Of a stretch of 64,000 nucleotides of DNA, positions 36,087 through 49,924 are shown one piece after another. The notes beneath the pieces were generated by a model. That model did no database searches and had not been told where the DNA came from. It was given only the letters and a program-made list of their open reading frames with translations. Both the position numbers and the translations under genes were made by a program. The number at the start of each line of letters is the position of its first letter. The stretch's first letter is position 1. Where the stretch lies: assembly GCA_032358255.1 (NCBI GenBank), contig JAULBX010030707.1, positions 115,882 to 179,881 of the forward strand, in the 5' to 3' direction. The stretch is from Heterotrichella gracilis. Taxonomy: Eukaryota > Sar > Xanthophyceae > Tribonematales > Xanthonemataceae.

Positions 36087-36959
36087 CTGGGGTGAGCATC
36101 GGCGTGTGTAGCGGGTGTGAGGTTGACACACAACGCCACACGCTAACTGGGCGATAGAGTTGCAAGACCCTTCTTCAATCTGTAGCAGATTGTATTGGCT
36201 GGAAGTTTGGCCGCAGTGGGCTGTGTCGTGTGCTACATATACTACCTGTACCTGTGGTAACACCCTAAAACCCTAGCAGGCATTCCCAGAAATACCAGTG
36301 GTCACCAGTCCCTCGTATCGGAGATTGCAACCTTTATGCGGTTGCTGATACGAGTACAAATTTGGTCGCAGTTGGCAAACCCCGACCACGGCATAGCGAC
36401 CACTGTAGCCGCATTGGACGAACGCACCAGGGCAACTGTACCATCACTGATGACCAGCAATAGCATTGCTATTGGGCAGCACTTGGCGCACGACGTTGAA
36501 CAACGTCTTTGAGACTTTCCAGCGGTTTACAGTAGCCTTTTGGGTAGTACAATGGGTTCTTTGGCCATTGCTCCACACAAGGGAGGAGGAGTACACAAGA
36601 AGACAAGTACACAGAAAAATAGTATCACCCGGGGGCCTTGCTTAAAGCTTACCCTGCCAAGGTCCTGCTGCACAATTGTATAAACAACCCATAATGTTAA
36701 CCATACCCAAAATCACAAACATAAGCAGTGCCGAGGGTTCTGTAAGGCGGTACACAGGGCCAGCGCAGGGTCAACCTGCTGCTTCACAATTGTATTCATG
36801 ACCCATAACCATAACCGTAACCATAATCCATGTGCTGTGCCAATTGGTTCCAGTCATGCGGTGCACAGGGCAAGCGCAGGGCCAACCTGCTGCTGCACAA
36901 CTGTATTCATAGGCCATAACCCATGATTAATATATATATGCACTGCCATTTGGTGCTGC
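36087..36959. other. 3' flank of the BRCT gene and unresolved WD40 5' end
   Basis: It contains at least two diverged copies of the BRCT gene's C-terminal exon (near 36735-36805 and 36855-36915) and a minus-strand TGTAA at 36527-36531. The missing 5' exon(s) of the WD40 gene should also be here; none was convincing. Confidence 0.5.
36527..36531 (-). terminator. TGTAA polyadenylation signal of the BRCT gene
   Basis: TTACA on the plus strand, 429 bases downstream of the BRCT stop codon. Confidence 0.45.
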
Positions 36960-37012
36960 TCAGGCGGTGAACAGGGCCAGTGCGGGGTCCATCTGCTGCT
37001 GCACTATGGCGT
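36640..37012 (-). repeat. Tandem copies of the BRCT gene C-terminal exon end
   Basis: The terminal coding stretch (CAGGCGGTGAACAGGGCCAG…CTGCTGCTGCAC, about 36960-37010) recurs near 36853-36910 and 36747-36800, and more faintly near 36660, each with CCATAACC-type tails. Confidence 0.85.
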
Positions 37013-40000
37013 CCATGAGGGCAGTGCGGGACCACACCAGGGCGCCACGTGGCACGTTCCTGCGGCACCACTCCACCTCCCTCCGGCGCTGCGCCTCGTC
37101 GGCGTCGGCGATGGCGATGCAGCGCGCTGAGCTGGCGGCCCGTGATTGGTCCGCCACCAGGGTCCCCCCCGCGTGCTTGATCAGGTCGCGCAGGCTTTCC
37201 ACCTTGGTGCCCTCAACGGCTTGGAGACCTGCAGCCATGGAGTTGGGCGAGATTGGTACTTATTTCTTTTAATGCGCAAAGCTCCTGGCAAAGCTGTCTT
37301 GTGCAGCAGCGGGCTGTGCGGTCCAGGGATGTGGCAAGGCTGAACCGCAGAACCTACAGGGTATATCAAACCGGAAATCCTACACTATGTATCCTACAAC
37401 CCTCACCTGGCGTCAGCACCACTGCTCTATTGTGAAGCAGGAACAAGTGCTGCGCCCCCAACAGGGAGGTGGCCTGCTTAACCCTTAACCCTAAAATACT
37501 ACACCTACAACCCTACTCTGGCGTGACCACGACTGCTGTATTGTGCAGCAGCAGGGAGTGTCAAGCACAAACCATTGATACCCTAAACCCTGCAATCCCA
37601 CCCGGCCAGAGGGAGGTGGCAAGGCTGAACCCTACAACCCTACAACCCCATACCCCACAATCCTCACCCGGTGTGAGCACCACTGCAGTGTTGTGCAGCA
37701 GCGGGCTGTGCTGCGCGCGTTCCAGCGAGGTGGCAAGGCTGAATCGCAGCAGGCGCTCAGCGGCTGGGTCCTGCAGCAGGTGCGGTGCGTGGTCCACCCA
37801 CCCGCCCATGCGCCCGCTGGTAACCACCCACGAGTCCTGCACAATGGGCCGGCCTGCCGGCACCCAGCACTGTTATTAGGACTGATTGAAACTGATCAGA
37901 ACTATCATGATTGCGGGTGGGATGGGGTGGCGGATGGTGGACAATGGGGTGCTAAGCACGTCAAGCGCATGATTAAGACTGATCAAACAGATAGGGCTTG
38001 AAGTTCTTGACAATGTGTAAGATTCGCCGCATGACCATGATTCAGTAGAAAATCCCCATCACCATCCCCCAGCGCCACCCAGCCCAGAACTTCATTCCTT
38101 TTTCCCTTTAATTCTATGGATCTCATTCTTAACTTCGATAAATATATACATTTACTATACGTCCATGTCCCCCACTCACCTGCTGCCAGCGCCACCAGCG
38201 TGCGCAGCGACTTAACAAACCCGTGCTCCCTCTCCCCCTTGACAGGGTTGAGTGTTACCAGGTGTGTGAAGTCAAGGTCATCGCCACCCACCACCACCCC
38301 GCCCAGCCGCTCTACTGTGCGCCCCAAGGCGGCTCGCGCACAGGCGCTGACACAGGAAGACACAAGCACACGCACCTGCCTGTATTGGGGAGGGGGCGGA
38401 AGCAGGCACCAATTAGTAACTTATTAGCTGGTTTGGATCACGTCCAAATCGCCCAAGATTTCAACAAATTTTAATTATTAACGCCAATATTAATATGAAA
38501 TTTACTGTTACATCATTTCATTCCAAAGAAATTGTGCTTTGCAACAGGCATCACATTGAACAATTAACAAGGCAAAAACATGGTGTAGGGTTGGCCTTAC
38601 CTGGACTCTGGCTTGCCCCTCAGCCTGCTCCGCTCATGTATGCCGCTCACCCCCGCCCCCCCCTCCTGCGTTCCCTCCTTGGCCACCACCCCGCCACCTG
38701 CACCCCCCTTCCCACCAGCCCCCCCTCTCCCCCTACCACTTGCACGCGGCGCTGCAGGTGCGCTGGCTTCCGCCACAGCCCCATCCTCCCCGCCGAGGTC
38801 GAGTTTGCCCCTCTTGGTTTGCCCCTTTCCCCTGGCATCCTCCCCTTGGGGGTCACCCTCCGCTGCCCGCTTTTGACCACGGGACCGCGAGGCTGTTTCG
38901 CCTGGCGCCTGCTGAGGGAGTGGCGCCTCTGCTGCCTGCTTCTTGCCGCGGGCCCGCGAGGCTGTTCCACCTGGGCCACCTACTGTTTCGCCTGCCGCCT
39001 CCACTGCCTGCTGCTGCCCCCGCCTCACGCCGATCCGCATGCTACCCACCCCTTGAGCAGCGCTCGGCGCCGCCACATCCTCTGCATTGCCACGGGTGGG
39101 GACCCGGGCAGCCCTTTCTGAGGGCTCCTTGGCAGCTGATGGCGGTGGTGGTGCTGATGCTGGTAATAGTGGTGGTGGTGCTGGTGGGGGCAGCTTCCCT
39201 CCCCGCCCTGCTTTCCCCTTCTCCACGCGGCCTTGTCCCGCATCCTGACTGGCTGTTGCTACTGGTGCTGGTGCTGGTGCTGGTGCTGGTGGTGGTGGCA
39301 GGTTCCCTCCCCGCCCTAATTTCCCTCCTTTCCCCCTGGTCGCATGGCCCTGTCCCGCATCCTGATTGGCCGCTACAGCCGGGGCGGATGGACCTCCTGC
39401 TTTCTCTCCCTTGATCGCTGCTGCTGCTTTGCCCCTTGTAGGACGGCCTGGCTGTTCCGGGGCGATGGCTGGCTCAGGTGGGGGGGGCACTGGGGAGGTG
39501 GTGGATGCTTTCCCCCTTGCGCCCCTGGCTCGCTTTTCCATGGCAACAGCAGGGGGCTGTGGCAGTGCAGGTGAGGCTTTTGTTTCATTTGCTTTCCCCC
39601 TTGCACCCCGGGCCCTCTTTTCAGCTGCACCAGATGGTGGTGGTTCTGGTTCTGGTGGTTCTGGTGGTGGTGGTGGTACTGATGTTGCCGCTGATGCCGT
39701 CGCTTCAACCCTAGAGGGGCGGACTGGCTGTGCAGCGGCAATGGCAGCGGCAGGGTGGGGTGGCGGGACAGGGGAAGCATCCATTTTCTTTGCTTTCCCC
39801 CTTCCTTTCATCCGAGAAGATCCCACTGCTGCCGCCTCCCCTTGCCCATCCCTGCCCACAGCCACGCCCTCATCCACACCACCACCAGCACCCTCCTCTG
39901 CCGGCGAAGGTGGGGTCGCCTGGCGTGCGCGCTTGCGAGGTTGGGGTTTCGATTGGGCGGCCTCCACCTGCAATGGCATGCAAGGTGTTACGCCACAGTT

Positions 40001-40669
40001 ACGCCACTCGGCATTATCCAGGGATTGGATCAGGGTCAGCACAGCAATTAAGAATCCAGCACTAGACGACCAAACATGTCATGAACCAAAAAATGCACAA
40101 GTTGACAGCCGCCAATGCGGTGAATCCTTTGGTGAAGCATTGTGAACCACAGCGATGACGCCACCCATCATCAACTGATGTAGCACCAAACCACGCAGAC
40201 AGCACAACCCAATAAAGAGCAGAAAAACAGGAAGCAATATCATTGGAGCACGAAAATATATACGGCCCTGACCTTGCGAGGAGCTCGCTTGCCGCTTGAT
40301 CGTTTGTGCTCCCCTGGCAGGCTGGTGGGTGGTGGTGGGCTAGCGGTGGGTACTGAGGGAAGCGCATCCGCACCCACATCCACTGCCTCAGCCGCCTCGC
40401 TATCGGGCACCACCCCCTCACCCACAGCCACCTCCACACCCACAGCCACCCCGCCACCCAACACCTCACTGTCCGGCAACACATCTGAGCCAGCAGTGGG
40501 TACTGAGGGAGCCACATCCGCACCCACAGCCCCACCAGCAGTGGGTACGGGAGCACCCACATCCGCAGCCGCCTCCTCACTATCCGCCACTATGGCCCCC
40601 CCACCGCCATCAGCAGCGGTGGGAACACCACCCGCCTCCCCTCCCACAGCCAATCCCCCATCGCCACCC

Positions 40670-40717
<48 letters not shown>

Positions 40718-43700
40718 ACTTCTGGTGGTGCTGGTGCTGGTGCTGGTGCTGGTCCAGCTGCTATCCCCACAAATTCCTGGGGATCGTTTGGTCCCAGAGA
40801 TTCGGTGGATGGGAAGCAGCTTGCTAACCGGGCCACTGCCTGCAGCGCGCCTGCCATGTCCTGGCTGGTGGGCTCTGAGGAGGGTATGCTAGGGTGTTGG
40901 GTGGAGGGTTTCGCCTTCCAGGCGCCCGGCTGCGGGGGGCGGGCCTGCAGCAACGGGGATGGAGAAAATAAGTACCATGGCATGCGGTGCTTTGGAATCG
41001 AATGCACAGTCAACCCAGAGGTAACAATGATGTTTAATCCTAATTTACCGTCCATTTTGTTGCTGACAACGAGCCATATCTAGGTCGTTGAGGCCACTTG
41101 GAACCCCATCCAATCAAAAACTAATTTGACCAACGTGTACAATCCGTCGCAATCCACTGACAAACACTGCAGGCGGGATTGCGTGCACGCAGAAAGGCCC
41201 CCAGAGCACCCTTGCCACCCCACCAACACTGCCAAACCCCTGCCATCCTTCCCTGCTAATCCGTAGCCAACCCAGCAATCCACACCAACCTTAGATCCTC
41301 AACCCCAAACATTTTTACATGAATTCCAGCAGAACAGCCAGGTAAGTAAAAACCTAAACCTTGAACCCTAATCCTCGCCTGCTGCAGCAGCTGTCCCGAG
41401 GGCGCGCCTGGCGGGAGGGCCTCTATCGTCCAGCTGCCGCCAGCAACACCCTCGGTAGGGTTCTGCACAGGAGCCGCACCCTCAACAGGGTCTGGCACAG
41501 GTGCTGGAGGCTGAAGAGGGTTCTGAACAAGGGCAGCACCCTCGAAAAGTGTTTCCACAGGAGCTGTACCCTCAAGAGGGTTTTCCACAGGGGCTGCAGC
41601 TCCCACAGGGTCTTGCTCAGCAGGTGCACCCTCAGCAGGGTTTTGCAATGGAGCTGCACCCTGGTTGCTGGTAGGTGGTGGAGGCGGCGACCCTGGGGTA
41701 GGGTGTTGGGAGCCCTGAGCCGCCTGCGCATCCTCCCCTTGGCCTTCAGAGTCCGCCACGACATTGCCTGTGGGTAGGGGTGGGTGTCATGGGGTGTGCC
41801 AACTTGGCATGCCAAGGGGTGTGTGATCATGGTGTCCATGTGGTGTGAGGGTGACAATGGTGGGTGTGGGTGGGTGGCATGAGTGTGTTTGCCTACCCCA
41901 CACCCACACCCCGCACTACAGCCGCGTGGGGTGTAGCAGCATGACGCGTGCGCACCCATGCCCAGCCGCACGCCCTTCCGTTGAACACGGAAGCAACGCC
42001 TGGATTTGCGCAGGGGCCGCACAGTCTGAGATGCATGGCCGCAAGCAGGGCAATGGTTTCAAGGTCTAGGGTTTAGGCTGACACACCCACCTGCGGAATG
42101 CCCGGCGTCGCACGCAGCGCCTGTGGCTCGTTTGGTGTGCCAGGTGGCGCCCTGTGAGCCACTCTGGGGCATTGGCACAGCCGCTGCATGCGCCTCAGGC
42201 TGTGGTCCCCTCAAGGCATCATCATTTGCACCAGCTGGAGCATCAGGGGGGCACAACTCCTCGCCACATGACTCATCTTCGGTTTCATCCCCAGATCCGA
42301 GTGGTCCCCCCCCTTGCGAATCCTCAATTTCCTCCCCAAACGCACGCATCCCGCCCCCTTCAGATGCCTCCGTTTCAGTCCCAGGCGCTCGGCCCCCCCC
42401 ATCCGACGTGTACATCTCCGGTGCTGGCTGATTGCCACCTGGCATGGGCTGTGGTGGAGCATTGCTCACGATCGAAGCTCCAACCTCTGGCAGGTGACAC
42501 TGCGCGGTAGTGGCTGCTTCCAACATCCCAGCTGGCTGTGAATCCGGCCCCTGGGACGAAGTCGGAGAGCCATCGTCCCCAAGCAGCAGCAGCTGAGGAT
42601 TTGCATGGGATGGAGATGCCTGTCCGCCGTTTTTCTGAGGCTCGGTGCCCTCCTGAATGGGGGTCAGATTTGCATTCCTTTGGGCACCACCACCACCACC
42701 ACCACCTCCACCACCTTCCCCTGCATCCTCCCCCACCCCCCCTGCAAGCTCACTGTGCTGAGGGCTGGGTGCAGCAGATGCGACCTCCCCTTGTGCAGCG
42801 GCTGCCGCCACCACCACTCCTTGCGCTGGCTCAGGTGGGTTGTTCTCCCCCCTGGGGTGGGGTGGGGCACCGCCACCTGACCGCTGCGACCCCCCCACAG
42901 ACTGCCTTCCTGTCCTCCCCCTGTCGGGATGTGCCAGATGGGAGCTATGCACCCAATCAGGCTTGTCAACCTGCAGCCAGGATAAGGTTGAGGGTGTAGG
43001 CTTTGGGATTGAGGGTTTAGGATTTTGCGAGTACTCCAAGGGAGCTGTGCACCCTGTCCACCCACGCCTGGTGCAGGGATTATTCGAAACACTTTAAGAG
43101 ACTGCTTCGTAAGGTTTGAGTCGAGCGTGTGAAGCGGGGAGCGGCAGGAAAATTGCGGCAATGCATGAGCCCATGGGCCGAGTGGCGCATGTGTACAGGA
43201 CGCTTTCAGCAGCAACACTTGCAGTGCAGCATGCTGCACAGTGCAGTGCAACTAGGCATGCAGGCTGTTGGCAGCGGTACTGTCAGGGGTGGCAGCATAA
43301 ACCTAAATAGGGTTGCAGCGTGAACCTAGCCAGGCATGGTTGCCAATCAATCCTGTGATGCACTGCCCGCCCTGCCTTGGAAGCCGGTGTTGGCAAGACT
43401 GTACATGCATCCCCACCAACTAACACCGCACCTCTCACCTCACCCAGTACATGAACCTCAGGGAACACAACGGGTAGCCACCGCAGACCGCCAAACCAAA
43501 GGCAAAAACCTCACCCACCCACCTGCTGCGATGGCCTCACTGGCTCTGGAGCGATGACCTCCCCTTGTTGCACCCCCTCCCCATGTTCCTCCCCCTGGCT
43601 CCCCTCCTCGCTGTGCCCATGCAGCAGGTTAAGCAGCAACATGCCTCGATCGCTACCATCACCACCACCACCACCATCACCACCACCTCCGCCACCACCA

Positions 43701-44311
43701 CCACCACCACCGCCACCACCACCACCACCACCCTCCAACGCCTCAGGGAGTGCACACAGCTGTGTGGCGGGGGGGATCTCCATCCCCATCCACTGGGTGG
43801 CTTCGTGTGGGGGGTGGGGGGCTGCGGGGGTGGCGGCTGGTGGGCTGGCTTTGGGTGGGGGCTGGCCGCTGGTCAAGGGGTGTGTGGCAGGATCAACAGG
43901 CTGGGAGGTTGCTGCAGCTGGAGCGGCGGTGGGGGCGGGGGGTGGCGAAACCCTTGATGGGGTCGGGGCAGTGAGGGTCTGTGTCTCACCAAGGGAGTCT
44001 GCAGGTGGGGGTGAGGGGGGGGGAGGGTGTTTCCCCACGGGTGTCGCACTAGCTGTGGGGGGCTGAAGGGCGCTGATCCCTGCCTCTTCGGTGGTTGACA
44101 ACCCCGCAACACCCCCTTCGTCGCCACCACCACCACCACCACCACCACCACCATGCTGTGCCGTCTGTGCCTCCTGCTGCGCTGCCCCTGGCTCCCCGCG
44201 CTCGCTGCCCTCCCCTTGCACACCAGTCGCTGCGCCCCCTGGGTTGGGCTGCGCGCCTGTTGTAGATCCCCCAAGGTGGCTGGCTGGAAGCGCAGGGGAG
44301 GGACCGCCCAC
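36960..44311 (-). CDS. Tandem-BRCT nuclear protein, MDC1-like C-terminus
   Basis: Eight minus-strand exons in consistent phase: 43523..44311, 42091..42970, 41379..41767, 40273..40944, 38601..39967, 38180..38379, 37668..37853, 36960..37228 (1583 residues). A possible first exon is 44367..44678 (ATG at 44678), uncertain. The last three exons form two BRCT repeats. BRCT1 has RVLVSSC, ERLGGVVVGG, VKSLRTLVALAAG and PIVQDSWVVTSG; the linker is DPAAERLLRFSLATSLERA; BRCT2 has LIKHAGGTLVAD. The Lys of VKSLRTLVAL aligns with the Lys that contacts the phosphopeptide in MDC1-type BRCT pairs, suggesting binding of phosphorylated histone tails. The middle is disordered: acidic GGG-spaced repeats, 30-base repeats, poly-Ala, poly-Gly, and basic RARGARGK / TRGK motifs likely to touch DNA. 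The 41379 exon end may use a GC donor. It may be the 3' part of a fusion with the FHA gene upstream. Confidence 0.78.
37300..37760 (-). repeat. Copies of a BRCT exon donor in the following intron
   Basis: The real exon end (CAGCAGCGGGCTGTGC…GGTGGCAAGGCTGAA, about 37695-37742) is echoed near 37304-37352, 37430-37475 and 37545-37632, with AACCCTACAACCCTA motifs between. Confidence 0.85.
40675..40714 (-). repeat. (GCT)n run encoding poly-Ala
   Basis: About thirteen GCT/GCTG triplets; on the minus strand they encode a poly-Ala tract in the BRCT protein. Confidence 0.95.
41432..41665 (-). repeat. 30-base coding minisatellite in the BRCT gene
   Basis: About seven diverged units of 30 bases with core CCCTC(A/G)A(C/G)AGGGTT; on the minus strand each encodes a decapeptide like EGAAPVQNPL. 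Confidence 0.9.
42681..42720 (-). repeat. (CAC)n run encoding poly-Gly
   Basis: CACCACCACCACCACCACC-type run in the BRCT gene exon 42091..42970; Gly on the coding strand. Confidence 0.9.
43656..43735 (-). repeat. Imperfect (CAC)n tract encoding poly-Gly
   Basis: Long ACC/CAC tract giving about 25 mostly Gly residues in exon 43523..44311; a second tract lies at about 44127-44155. Confidence 0.9.
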
Positions 44312-44873
44312 CTGGTGCAACACCACCCCAAGGCTTCAGTGACTGGTGTGCAGAGGGGGAGGGCACCTGTGGGAAAGCAGCTACGACGGGGATGACAGTG
44401 GCGGGAAACGAGGCGGCAGGGGAGGTCAACGAGGCAAAAGCAAGAGGGGATGCGGGGCAAGCGTGCAAGCATACAGCATTGGGACGAGACATATGGTTTT
44501 GATGATCTGTGTAGTTACTCAAATATTTGCCACCAGGTGGCGCAACCAACGTCTGACACAACGGTTCATTTGCAGATATGAAGCAAGGCAAGAAAATGCC
44601 CACGAATATCAAAGCCATAAATAGAGATACAGGGTCTGTTAGAGCGTCAATAGCCAGTGCACCTGGGGTGCGGTCCATACAACTGTGTTAGTCAAACGAG
44701 CTGTACGTCAAATCCAGGCAAACTCAAACAACAAAGTAATTTTGCAGTACGTTTTTTAAAGCGCAGCTATTGTTCCAGCTCTTGTAAAATGGCTGGTGTT
44801 GAAAGACTGGCGCTACGGTCACATACTTTGCAAGGGAGGAAACACGCCCTGCAAGTGGCCATGGTAGCACGTA

Positions 44874-44878
44874 TTACA
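44874..44878 (-). terminator. TGTAA signal after the FHA gene stop
   Basis: Minus-strand TGTAA 227 bases after the FHA stop at 45105. It supports the FHA gene ending here as a gene of its own. Confidence 0.5.
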
Positions 44879-45104
44879 AGGCCTTTGCAGCCCTAAACAC
44901 TAAACCCTCACAGGCATTTGCAGCCCTAAACCCTATCAAGCTATATCTAGCTCTCCCTCCCACCAACCCCTTACGCCTCCGGGTGTTACCACGAAAAAGG
45001 GTACTGCTTTGAAGTCATATAATTCCTGCACTAGTGCAGTGTAAAGCGAGGCGCTGAAAAATGGAAAAGGAAAACCCGTAACCCGCAAAATCCCACTGAA
45101 AACC

Positions 45105-47347
45105 CTAGGCCAGCTGCTTTGCCAGGCGCCGGAGGTCATGGAATCGCGGCGATTTGGGCGAGGGGGAGGGCACGAGGGGACCCACGGTGGGGGAGTCGTG
45201 GCTGCGCGTGCGCTTCATCCGCGGGCTGATGGGTGGCGAGGTGGCGCTGGCGGTGGAACCCCCCACCATGGGTGGTGCGGTGACTCCCGCCACCACCGGT
45301 GGTGAGCTGGCACCTCCCGCCGCAAGTGGCGAGGATGTTGGGGGCAGGCGGGCAAGGCTGGGGAGGTTCTGCCTGCGCGACTCCGCCATAGACCCTAGGG
45401 TGGGGGTCCTTGGCTCGGAGGATTTGGAAGTCAGGGATTCGGTGAATCCCAGGGAGCCTCCGATGCCATCCGCGCAGCTGATGCTCTGCGTGTCTGACTC
45501 GCACTGGGTGTCCAGGGAGGTCGCTGTGGGCAGGCCCAGCTCGACATCATCCAGCATCCAGTCGGTGAGCGACAGCTGGCGCAGGCTGGCCCACTCGCTG
45601 AGGGAGGGCGCGCGCTCCGCGGTGATGAGCGACGCGCGGCGCGCGTGCGGGATGGCGATGGCGTGTTCGTGCACCGGCCTATGGAAAACCCTAGACCCTA
45701 GCTCCTGGGAAACGGGCGGCCTAGCGTGCAGGGGGCTGCTGGGTGGTGCGGGTGCAGGTGCGCAGGGGACGTGGGGTGGGGTAACAACCTGTGCGACGCC
45801 CGGCAGGGGGTGGGGGGGAGGCGCGGCGGGGCTGTGGGCGCCTGCGCCTGGTGTAGCGGCAGCTTGTTGGGGGGCGGAGGTGCTTGGGGGGCTTGGGGGC
45901 GCCTGAGGGAGGGTGGGGAGGGAGGTTGGAAGCTGGAGGTTGTGAGAAGGGAGGGAATGTGGGGAGCTCTATCCCTACCCATATATTCATCCCAGGGCCA
46001 GATGGGCACTGGGTGTGGATGTGCCAAGGGTGGGGGGAGCGGGTGCATGGCGCGTGCAGACTGGTAGCTGGAATCCTAGGGGTAAAAGTGCAGCACATAC
46101 TAGGTAGACTGACCCAGAACCAACCGGAAAGGCAGTGCAGCATGAAGGTTGTAGGGACACAGAGCTGCACAGCTAGGTTGTGGGTGTGGCAAATTGTGGG
46201 TAGGGCAGGTTTGGCTGGTGCCTTGCCACTGCAGCGCTGCAGCTGTCATGCACAGGCCAGCTACCACTCAGCAGCCACTGGCCCCTACCTGACGAAGCGT
46301 GCACTGCACAGAACCAAACTGCAGCACGTCGCCGGGCTGTACCGTGTATCTGTCCCCGGGTTGTAGCGTCATCTGGGTGTCGTTCCGCTTCAAATAGCTC
46401 TGCAGGCACAGGATGGATGTGGTCACGGCATGCGCAGGTGCAACCCCAGCTAGGCAGCTGCGAAGGCGGTTTTGAAAGACAACCCACCTTGTTTTTGCTG
46501 TTCATGTCCTTGACAAACCACAGGGCACCCTCCACGTCTGCGGCACGAGGGTTGGTAAGGCAACTACGGTCAGATGCAATGCAGCAGCGTCGCAACAAAG
46601 ATTGATGTTTTGCAGCACGAGGAGCTTACATATATCAGCGTGCCTGGAAGACACACTCTTGTCGTCGATGAACACGCCTGGACAAAAAAAAACGAGACGA
46701 TAAGGGGACGCTGTGAGTATGTAGACAAACAGCGCTGGCCCACTTCGCGTGTGCACACAACATCTCAAAGCATACCATGAACAGGCTGTGACGAGGTGCT
46801 TTGCCACTCTTGCACGCGCTGTCTGTCGTTGCTCGACTGCAACGCTTTTCTGCATATCACATTGCAGCCTGCGTGGTAAGTTTGAAAGTAAAGTCGGTCA
46901 GCCTTGGCGTGGGTGGTGGCTACTATCGTAACTGGGCATTTGAACGAGCAAGGTAGTGCTTGGGTCTTGGTCTAAACACACTTTTAGTCGTACCTGCGTG
47001 TAGTGGAGCGCGGCCTGACCCAGAAGTTCCCTGTATTTGTAGAAAGCCCACCTGTGAATGAGCAAGGCAAGGGTGAGCTGTGAGAACACCGAATCAAGCC
47101 CTGGTCCACGTGGATTTTCATAGGATGAAGAGATGCAACGCTACCCAGAAAACAAGAGTCCAGAGGGGTCAAGAATTCTTCTTCATTGCAGGCTTTTTGC
47201 AAGAGGGCACAAGCTTCCACAACAAATTTGGCAAGCGCAGCCCTTGAGCAGCCCTTGAGCAACGCATGCACCCACCTCTGGCTTCTGTGGGGAAGGTTCT
47301 GTAAAGTCGTCAAACCCGAACACGTCCAGTTCCTGCGTTGCGTCCAT
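45105..47347 (-). CDS. FHA-domain protein, MDC1-like N-terminus
   Basis: Six minus-strand exons, 47276..47347, 46994..47051, 46630..46677, 46488..46537, 46289..46399 and 45105..45902, encode 378 residues with all phases agreeing. The N-terminus is MDATQELDVFGFDDF, with a Thr-Gln ATM/ATR-type site at residue 4. The FHA domain covers about residues 25-113: VGFLQIQGTSGSG, IDDKSVSSRHADI (the SxxH phosphothreonine pocket), WFVKDMNSKNK, and PGDVLQFGSVQCTLRQ. FHA domains bind phosphothreonine peptides in DNA-damage and cell-cycle signalling. The C-terminal 260 residues are Ser/Pro-rich with many SP/TP sites. The last exon could start at 45902 or slightly upstream; both acceptors keep phase. A GTGGGT donor at 45185 in phase 0 could skip the TAG and join the BRCT gene. 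Without that the protein is a free FHA adaptor. Confidence 0.83.
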
Positions 47348-48616: not shown

Positions 48617-49924
48617 CTAACCAACCATCAGAACGTTGTCCTCAAGGAACTTGTACTCTGGCACTTCCAGGTTGTAGGGTGCTGGGCCCTTGCGGATGCG
48701 CCCAGATGTGTCGTAATGGCTCCCGTGGCAGGGGCAGAACCAGCCGTGGTAGTCACCCGCGTTGGGCAGTGGCACACACCCCAAGTGCGTGCACACGCCC
48801 ACAAGCACCAGCCACTGCACACAGCAATGGGAGAGGGTTATTGCACTGTCACAAGGGGCAGGCAGCGCACCAGACAGCGTTTGCAGTCAGGCAGGAGGAT
48901 GAGACGGCATGGCACTCACCTCAGGCTTCTGCACACGGACGCTGTCAGGCTGTGGGTCACGCAGCGAGGCCACGTTCACGTCCTCAGCCGCGCTGATGTC
49001 GTGCTCAGTGCGGTGGCGGATGAACACTGGCTTGCCACGCCACTTGACTGTGACTGTCTGGCCCACCTCGATGTTGGACAGGTCCACCTCCAGCGAAGCC
49101 ATGGCCAGCACATCCTTGGTGGCCTACAAAGGATACGTATGGATTGATCATCCAGTTTGGTGAGCAGATAGCTGCCTTGACCAGCATCCAGTTGTCCCCA
49201 CCGACCCGTAAGTGCTGGTCATTGGCGGCACCGCGCAGCTAGATGTGTGCACAATTCAGGGCAAGGGAAGTTGCAAGATAAATGCCCAACATATTGATAC
49301 CAAGGCCATGAGCACAGACATACCGTCATGGAGAGGATGAACTTGAGCACAAGTAGCCGGGCCGCAGATGCATAGATGAACCTCCCTCCAGTGAGCACAA
49401 AGTAGGTGAAAGCACGCTTGCTGGGGTCCCCAACAGGGTACCTTGGGTGTATGTGCTCATCATACCTAAAGACAAGTTATGTGCGTGTTATGAGTCAGTG
49501 GCAACGGTTCAAAGCAGCAGCAAACTCAAAAAGCAACTTGGATTTGCAGCAAGTAAGGGTCTTGTCCCCATGGTACTTACACAATGGCGTTGGTTGGGTT
49601 CTTGGTCGCATACACGGTGGGTGGCATGCCATATGTCTCGGCTGTTGTCAAGTCTGTTGAAGCTGCGAACCCTGCAAGAGGAAAATTTGCTTGCAAGGAG
49701 GTTTGATGCGGTTGTGAAGCCAACCCAGGGCAACGTGAAAAGCCCTCCGTCCCACCTCTGCTCAACACGGATGTCGCCGTGAGGGGAATAGAGGTCGATG
49801 TCCTGCCAGTGATTCCCACGCAGGATCCGGCAGCGCTGGAAAGTGTTGCTGTTGAGGCGTTGCATGCTTGTCCCCAGCTGACCAGCTTTGGGGACAGCTG
49901 ATGGAGGGCACGGCGGAGCGCCAT
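48617..49924 (-). CDS. RIP1: Rieske iron-sulfur subunit of mitochondrial complex III
   Basis: Five minus-strand exons, 49756..49924, 49581..49671, 49324..49465, 48920..49123 and 48617..48814, encode 267 residues. The Rieske protein carries a 2Fe-2S cluster that takes electrons from ubiquinol and passes them to cytochrome c1 in the inner membrane. The cluster loops are intact: CTHLGC and CPCHGSHYD, followed by [17 protein letters not shown]. The conserved N-terminal stretch [20 protein letters not shown] precedes a single membrane helix ([20 protein letters not shown]). The first ~60 residues ([13 protein letters not shown]…) form a mitochondrial presequence. The ATG has a CCACC context. The VYDEH… stretch and the mitochondrial presequence separate it from the plastid PetC protein. 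It faces the NOT4 gene head-to-head over 373 bases. Confidence 0.97.

Follow-up and report, generated by a model that had tools for sequence, protein, structure and literature searches.

In animals, the DNA-break mediator MDC1 has an ATM-type Thr4-Gln ahead of its FHA domain. All 119 metazoan MDC1 proteins examined in a 2024 survey combine the FHA domain with a tandem BRCT (tBRCT) repeat, SDTD repeats being confined to vertebrates (PMC11014961). The FHA domain of MDC1 binds the N-terminus of MDC1 itself (PMC4157861), FHA-driven oligomerisation and nucleosome binding by a basic PST region have been described (PMC6858307), and FHA and tBRCT also occur together in one Dictyostelium and one Polysphondylium protein (PMC4013092). 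The plant proteins BCP3 and BCP4 carry a C-terminal tBRCT and no FHA domain; BCP1 and BCP4 could not be identified unambiguously in most chlorophytes, and the survey concluded that opisthokont MDC1 and its plant counterpart arose independently, with a gamma-H2A.X-binding tBRCT as their sole common feature (PMC11014961). XIP, another Arabidopsis gamma-H2A.X reader, is also described without an FHA domain (PMC9792525). The window analysed here, a stretch of 64,000 nucleotides from an assembly of Heterotrichella gracilis, contains a seven-exon gene for an FHA protein which is followed on the same strand by an eight-exon gene whose product ends in a tBRCT. No chlorophyte pair of FHA and tBRCT was found among the papers listed by full-text searches on MDC1, FHA and BRCT with green algae or Dictyostelium, most of which were judged by titles and abstract openings.

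The reading preferred for this locus is a chlorophyte version of the MDC1 mediator whose two ends are encoded by adjacent genes on the same strand, and its probability is put slightly below one half (about 0.48). Both genes may descend from a single ancestor of the FHA...tBRCT type. The BRCT gene, the next modelled gene downstream of the FHA gene, lies on the minus strand (44311-36960) and encodes 1583 residues counted from its exon A. Its first BRCT repeat is encoded by exon F (38180-38379, VRVLVSS...FVKSLRTLVALAAG), which is recognised in the PDB alignment and weak in Pfam, the end of this repeat and an MDC1-like linker (LLRFSLATSLERAQHSPLLHNTAVVLTPG) by exon G (37668-37853, PDB alignment), and the second repeat with the TGA stop by exon H (36960-37228, Pfam and exon joining). 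Among the PDB matches, MDC1 leads with 3k05 (5.2e-8, 36.1 bits) and three more MDC1 chains, with PTIP nearly equal (3sqd, 1.2e-7, 35.0 bits), followed by Brc1 (0.0025) and nibrin (0.23); a match to a Src chain (0.14) seems fortuitous. The tBRCT is identical to that of human MDC1 at 41/137 aligned residues and at 12/33 in the linker; for the BCP3/BCP4 pair of Arabidopsis a figure of about 24% has been reported (PMC11014961). When a fragment of 222 residues was searched against Pfam, the second repeat passed the cut-off (BRCT_2, 28.1 bits, 2.6e-6) and the first matched weakly (PF00533, 0.024). Modelled by itself with AlphaFold, the last BRCT exon reached a mean predicted local distance difference test score of 52.8, too low for use.

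Upstream of the tBRCT, the protein is first acidic and then basic, with 103 D/E to 24 K/R in residues 1-900 and 78 K/R to 44 D/E in residues 901-1400. Exon A (43523-44311) is acidic and rich in SQ/TQ (TQTL, TQWM, TQLC), and exon B (42091-42970) is acidic as well. Exon C (41379-41767) carries 30-bp repeats (NPxEGxAPV) and has an uncertain donor, either the GC donor modelled or another site. ADSE/PDSE motifs and poly-Ala characterise exon D (40273-40944) and basic ARGK/TRGK motifs exon E (38601-39967), exons B, D and E being modelled by exon joining and composition; eight places in the protein match the basic RGK/GK-type patterns searched. In the first 300 residues, 7 S/T-Q sites were counted where 2.7 are expected (p 0.009), whereas the 4 sites of the densest 100-residue window are not significant (p 0.11). 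Enrichment of TQ is not significant in the FHA protein (p 0.07) or in residues 1-300 of the BRCT protein (p 0.13), and TQx-hydrophobic motifs across both are TQEL, TQSI, TQTL and TQWM. No SDTD-type motif ([ST]D[ST][DE]) was found in either protein; one SDTQ occurs in the FHA protein.

By three-frame reading and exon joining, the FHA gene was placed on the minus strand at 47347-45105, with six introns that are all GT-AG and agree in phase, and a product of 409 residues with the N-terminus MDATQELDVFG. Exon 1 (47276-47347, MDATQELDVFGFDDFTEPSPQKPE) opens at 47347 with an ATG whose context is AACCATGG and ends at a GTGGGT donor in phase 0. Because the frame is closed by a TAA ten codons before this ATG, Thr-Gln falls exactly at residues 4-5, unless an upstream exon exists, and a Leu occupies position +3 from Thr4 (MDATQELD). 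The first FHA strands (VGFLQIQG..., collinear with VGRLHIFSG of human MDC1) are encoded by exon 2 (46994-47051, GT-AG, phase 0 in and 1 out), the segment ...CNVICRK... with a loop insertion by exon 3 (46776-46868, phase 1, from the alignment to the human MDC1 FHA), the core FHA motif VFIDDKSVSSRHADI by exon 4 (46630-46677), VEGALWFVKDMNSKNK by exon 5 (46488-46537) and the domain end by exon 6 (46289-46399), which ends in phase 0; exons 4 to 6 follow from exon joining and Pfam. Exon 7 (45105-45902) holds a disordered tail with DTQ and SDTQ, a basic C-terminus and the TAG stop, the coding score being +103 over the exon and falling after the TAG. Pfam FHA matches the joined protein at residues 76-136 (40.4 bits, 3.9e-10) within a domain of about residues 25-144, which is complete only once the seven exons are joined in phase; the exon-wise profile search of the genome did not list this gene, as expected when a domain is spread over five exons. 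Aligned locally with the FHA of human MDC1, the domain is collinear from end to end (z 8.4, 0/500 shuffles as high) and keeps the phosphothreonine-site positions, namely the Arg of GR, the Ser of SxxH and the Asn of SxN.

The genome searched with profiles comprises 68.5 Mb in 903 contigs, the window being C814:115882-179881, and gave 12 FHA exon matches in the exon-wise search. Under the assumption of 12-25 FHA genes, a guess from these matches, and of 12,000 genes, the tBRCT gene would by chance have an FHA gene as its upstream neighbour on the same strand in about 0.1-0.2% of cases. Composition alone would place a TQ precisely at residue 4 in about 0.3% of cases and have one start at residues 2-9 in about 2.2%. 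Taken together, neighbourhood, order, strand, tBRCT class and Thr4 are unlikely by chance, the conjunction having been noticed after the fact and the gene numbers being assumed. Elsewhere in the genome, neither the tBRCT nor the FHA protein had a paralogue at E <= 1, the 4/4 and 7/7 matches all being this locus. Among the histone loci read, one H2A tail is GSVSQEF (L054, G000:C50:82038) and the other H2A tails end in KDKEA; the H2A.X with the SQEF end is the candidate, and expected, ligand of the tBRCT. Much of the original prediction, which had been made from the letters of the window, is borne out: the MDATQ start with Thr at residue 4, the FHA domain soon after it, the BRCT pair at the end of the next same-strand gene, its MDC1-like linker, and the acidic part followed by basic TRGK/RARGK motifs. 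It had named an MDC1-like pair or fusion; the pair stands, on tBRCT similarity, order, strand, Thr4-Gln, acidic-basic layout and the H2A.X SQEF tail, while the fusion proposed between 45185 and 44312 does not.

Several observations weigh against the reading as a split MDC1-like mediator. The FHA domain has an insert of about 20 residues and a Cys replacing the Gly before the Arg, which could weaken phosphothreonine binding. When eight other FHA exons of the genome were aligned with the human MDC1 FHA (200 shuffles each), three matched as well or better (L001 z 10.3, L003 8.6, L002 8.4), followed by L006 (7.5), L004 (7.3), L007 (5.3), L008 (2.0) and L005 (1.7), of which L005 was read in the wrong frame and L007 and L008 are partial; a PDB search of the FHA protein placed GarA first, the MDC1 FHA not being among the matches listed. 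Since other FHA exons score alike and GarA leads the ranking, the FHA sequence is not MDC1-specific, and its MDC1-likeness resides in its place and Thr4. On the BRCT side, Pfam shows in the full 1583 residues the second repeat alone and below the cut-off, and the genome searches with PF00533 and PF16770 missed the locus while PF16589 listed it below the cut-off, so that family models alone would overlook it. No homologue passed in three protein searches, in which the best word-sharing candidates were scored (7991 for the FHA protein, 6246 for the BRCT region and 63 for the FHA region of the joined model). For the start of the BRCT gene there are several candidate exons.

The phosphopeptide pocket also differs from that of MDC1. 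In the HMMER alignment, R1932 is replaced by Val, R1933 by Lys and K1936 by Arg, so the phosphopeptide Lys claimed by the original prediction is not kept at its position and a Lys falls at R1933 instead; by eye, T1898 and G1899 correspond to Ser and E2063 to Thr, E2063 lying outside the HMMER alignment. The K1936 position is Asn in BCP4, where binding is retained (PMC11014961), and consequently binding of a phosphorylated H2A.X tail by the algal tBRCT is plausible by analogy.

Whether one gene or two are present was addressed by training a codon model on 1690 codons and 3613 intron bases of the locus; the whole of exon A and the final 41 codons of the FHA gene were kept out of the training. 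The fusion originally proposed, through a donor at 45185 and the acceptor at 44312, had been given about 1935 residues; this join would yield 1966. The 26 codons after the donor score +7.8 bits with a GC content of 0.71, compared with -4.7 to -35.2 bits for the 78 bases after 13/13 modelled donors, one of them the uncertain GC site and their flanking introns also being in the non-coding training set. In leave-out training, the median over 76 coding windows was 11.1, 3 being negative, and the maximum over 120 intron windows, each scored with its own intron left out, was 5.6 (0/120 reach +7.8). After the TAG at 45105 the GC content drops to 0.44 and eight consecutive 90-base blocks to 44385 are non-coding in every frame, GC being back to 0.63 in the last of them. 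Two genes are therefore favoured, because the coding signal runs past 45185 to the TAG and stops there, and exon 7 most likely ends in a genuine stop. The fusion by the 45185 donor was rejected on the same ground, as was the reading of the TAG as Gln, because none of the three frames of the stretch after it scores as coding.

The opening 90-base block of exon A already scores as coding (+14.4), and exon A needs an upstream exon, since an in-frame stop lies at 44338-44336 and no Met occurs before residue 175. Its candidate partners are a start of its own and exon 6 of the FHA gene. The former is a putative first coding exon at 44827-44862 on the minus strand (MATCRACFLPCK), with an ACCATGG start at 44862 and AAA followed by a GTATGT donor, in phase 0, one of several such ATG-donor pairs. 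A TGTAA (44874-44878, minus strand) is a weak candidate for the poly(A) signal of the FHA gene, as 35 occur in the window where 42.8 are expected on that strand; it lies only 16 bases before the candidate start.

The second partner gives the alternative that survives best, in which a single locus makes two products, exon 7 being an alternative last exon of a 409-residue FHA-only protein and its skipping giving an FHA...tBRCT protein of about 1727 residues (144 + 1583). Exon 6 ends and exon A starts in phase 0, although such agreement has a one-in-three chance. This arrangement would supply exon A, coding from its first bases, with the upstream exon that it needs, yet the candidate start at 44862 would do so too; it would leave exon 7 its coding signal and retain the architecture of MDC1, at the cost of an intron of 1977 nt where the other 13 measure 88-552 nt. 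On balance exon skipping appears rather unlikely. It is quite unlikely, in its broader form, that green algae keep the complete FHA...tBRCT design together with the Thr4 dimerisation switch, one locus yielding either the full mediator or, through the alternative last exon, a free FHA "dimeriser". If that were true, the MDC1 architecture would date to the ancestor shared by animals, amoebae and plants, the FHA end would have been lost in land plants, and the N-terminal parts of the plant and animal versions would not have evolved independently.

A BCP4-type gamma-H2A.X reader of the plant kind, with the tBRCT alone, could also lie beside an FHA gene to which it is unrelated; the TQ at residue 4 would then be a coincidence. 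The plant proteins without FHA in the survey (PMC11014961), the generic FHA sequence and the end of coding before the BRCT gene agree with such an arrangement, and the algal protein shares with BCP3 and BCP4 the green lineage, the C-terminal tBRCT, the disordered N-terminal part and TQx-hydrophobic motifs; DWMLDD and DTQ, present in the FHA protein, are a lead only toward conserved regions of BCP3/BCP4. Unlike these proteins, however, the algal locus has an FHA neighbour, and with FHA genes as few as the 12 exon matches suggest, such a neighbour on the same strand and in MDC1 order would arise by chance in roughly 0.1-0.2% of cases on the assumed counts, and a TQ near the N-terminus in about 2%, which makes a fortuitous neighbourhood rather unlikely. 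A tBRCT of a PTIP/BCP1 or Brc1/Rtt107-like protein outside the MDC1/BCP4 group is very improbable despite the near-equal scores of PTIP and MDC1 (35.0 and 36.1 bits), since Brc1 matches much more weakly (0.0025) and a scan of the 1583 residues at E <= 1, which overlooked the first repeat too and could overlook divergent ones, gave no BRCT outside the C-terminal pair, compared with six in PTIP (PMC12842040); PTIP was rejected as the identity on this count.

Under the reading as a split MDC1-like mediator, an ATM/ATR kinase would phosphorylate H2A.X at SQEF at a DNA break, and the tBRCT of the downstream protein would bind the phosphorylated tail. The acidic, SQ/TQ-rich half of this protein would be phosphorylated by ATM/ATR and its basic half may grip nucleosomes. 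The FHA protein, phosphorylated at Thr4, would dimerise through its FHA domain by analogy with MDC1, and the FHA might bind phospho-TQ sites on the BRCT protein as well, whereby the mediator would be rebuilt in trans.

Compared with metazoan MDC1, the locus shares the Thr4-Gln before an N-terminal FHA, the long disordered middle that is acidic and then basic, the C-terminal tBRCT with a similar linker, and an H2A.X with an SQE-aromatic tail in the genome. It differs in having FHA and tBRCT in two reading units, in lacking SDTD repeats and in three changed pocket positions, and its TRGK/ARGK motifs bear a resemblance to PST repeats. Mdb1 of S. pombe has an MDC1-type tBRCT and, like the algal protein by eye, a Ser at the T1898 position (S392), whereas it keeps K434 and is a single polypeptide without recognisable FHA sequence; the amoebozoan MDC1-like proteins have the N-terminal FHA and C-terminal tBRCT in the algal order, but as single polypeptides (PMC4013092). 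NBS1 also combines these two modules of the DNA damage response, its tBRCT directly following the FHA in one protein (PMC8079451). As no BRCT family matched the algal FHA protein at E <= 1 in Pfam, NBS1 was rejected as its identity. A chlorophyte MDC1-type tBRCT beside a Thr4-FHA protein would be a candidate for the missing gamma-H2A.X reader of chlorophytes, and the locus would make testable whether eukaryotes had the FHA end and the dimerisation switch ancestrally. If the mediator is indeed split, it would be a natural separation-of-function experiment for MDC1.

The host was considered through its light-harvesting proteins. A CP26 exon scores 311 bits to 7pi0, 306 to 6kac and 134 to 5mdx, which we take to be from Dunaliella, Chlamydomonas and Arabidopsis, and an Lhca3 exon 242 bits to 6zzx, 226 to 7bgi and 181 to 4rku, presumably from Chlorella, Chlamydomonas and pea. 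Because these exons score highest against structures taken to be chlorophyte, they point to a chlorophyte host. In the profile search of the genome, MRE11 gave 2 exon matches and FATC, which we take to mark ATM, ATR, TOR and kin (PIKK-class), 6 matches on 5 contigs. The NIBRIN BRCT family had no match in the genome but none in 14 controls either, so that its absence is not demonstrated. On another contig (L013, G000:C430), a pair of BRCT-like exon matches, the second below the cut-off, is separated by 6.6 kb and may belong to a second multi-BRCT protein.

Within the window, Rfam gave no match at the gathering threshold, and a Rieske [2Fe-2S] exon (PF00355, 1.9e-8) at 48620-48886 precedes the FHA gene on its strand. 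Telomere-like TTTAGGG/CCCTAAA heptamers number 42 across the window where about 6 are expected, several of them in introns and spacers of the locus. At 36745-37004, at and beyond the stop codon of the BRCT gene, 2.4 tandem copies of about 111 bp repeat the end of the last BRCT exon. The intron before that exon (37229-37667) contains decayed tandem copies of the linker exon, with 63-93% identity over 27-84 nt, one of which retains, by eye, a donor-like CCAG/GTGAGG.

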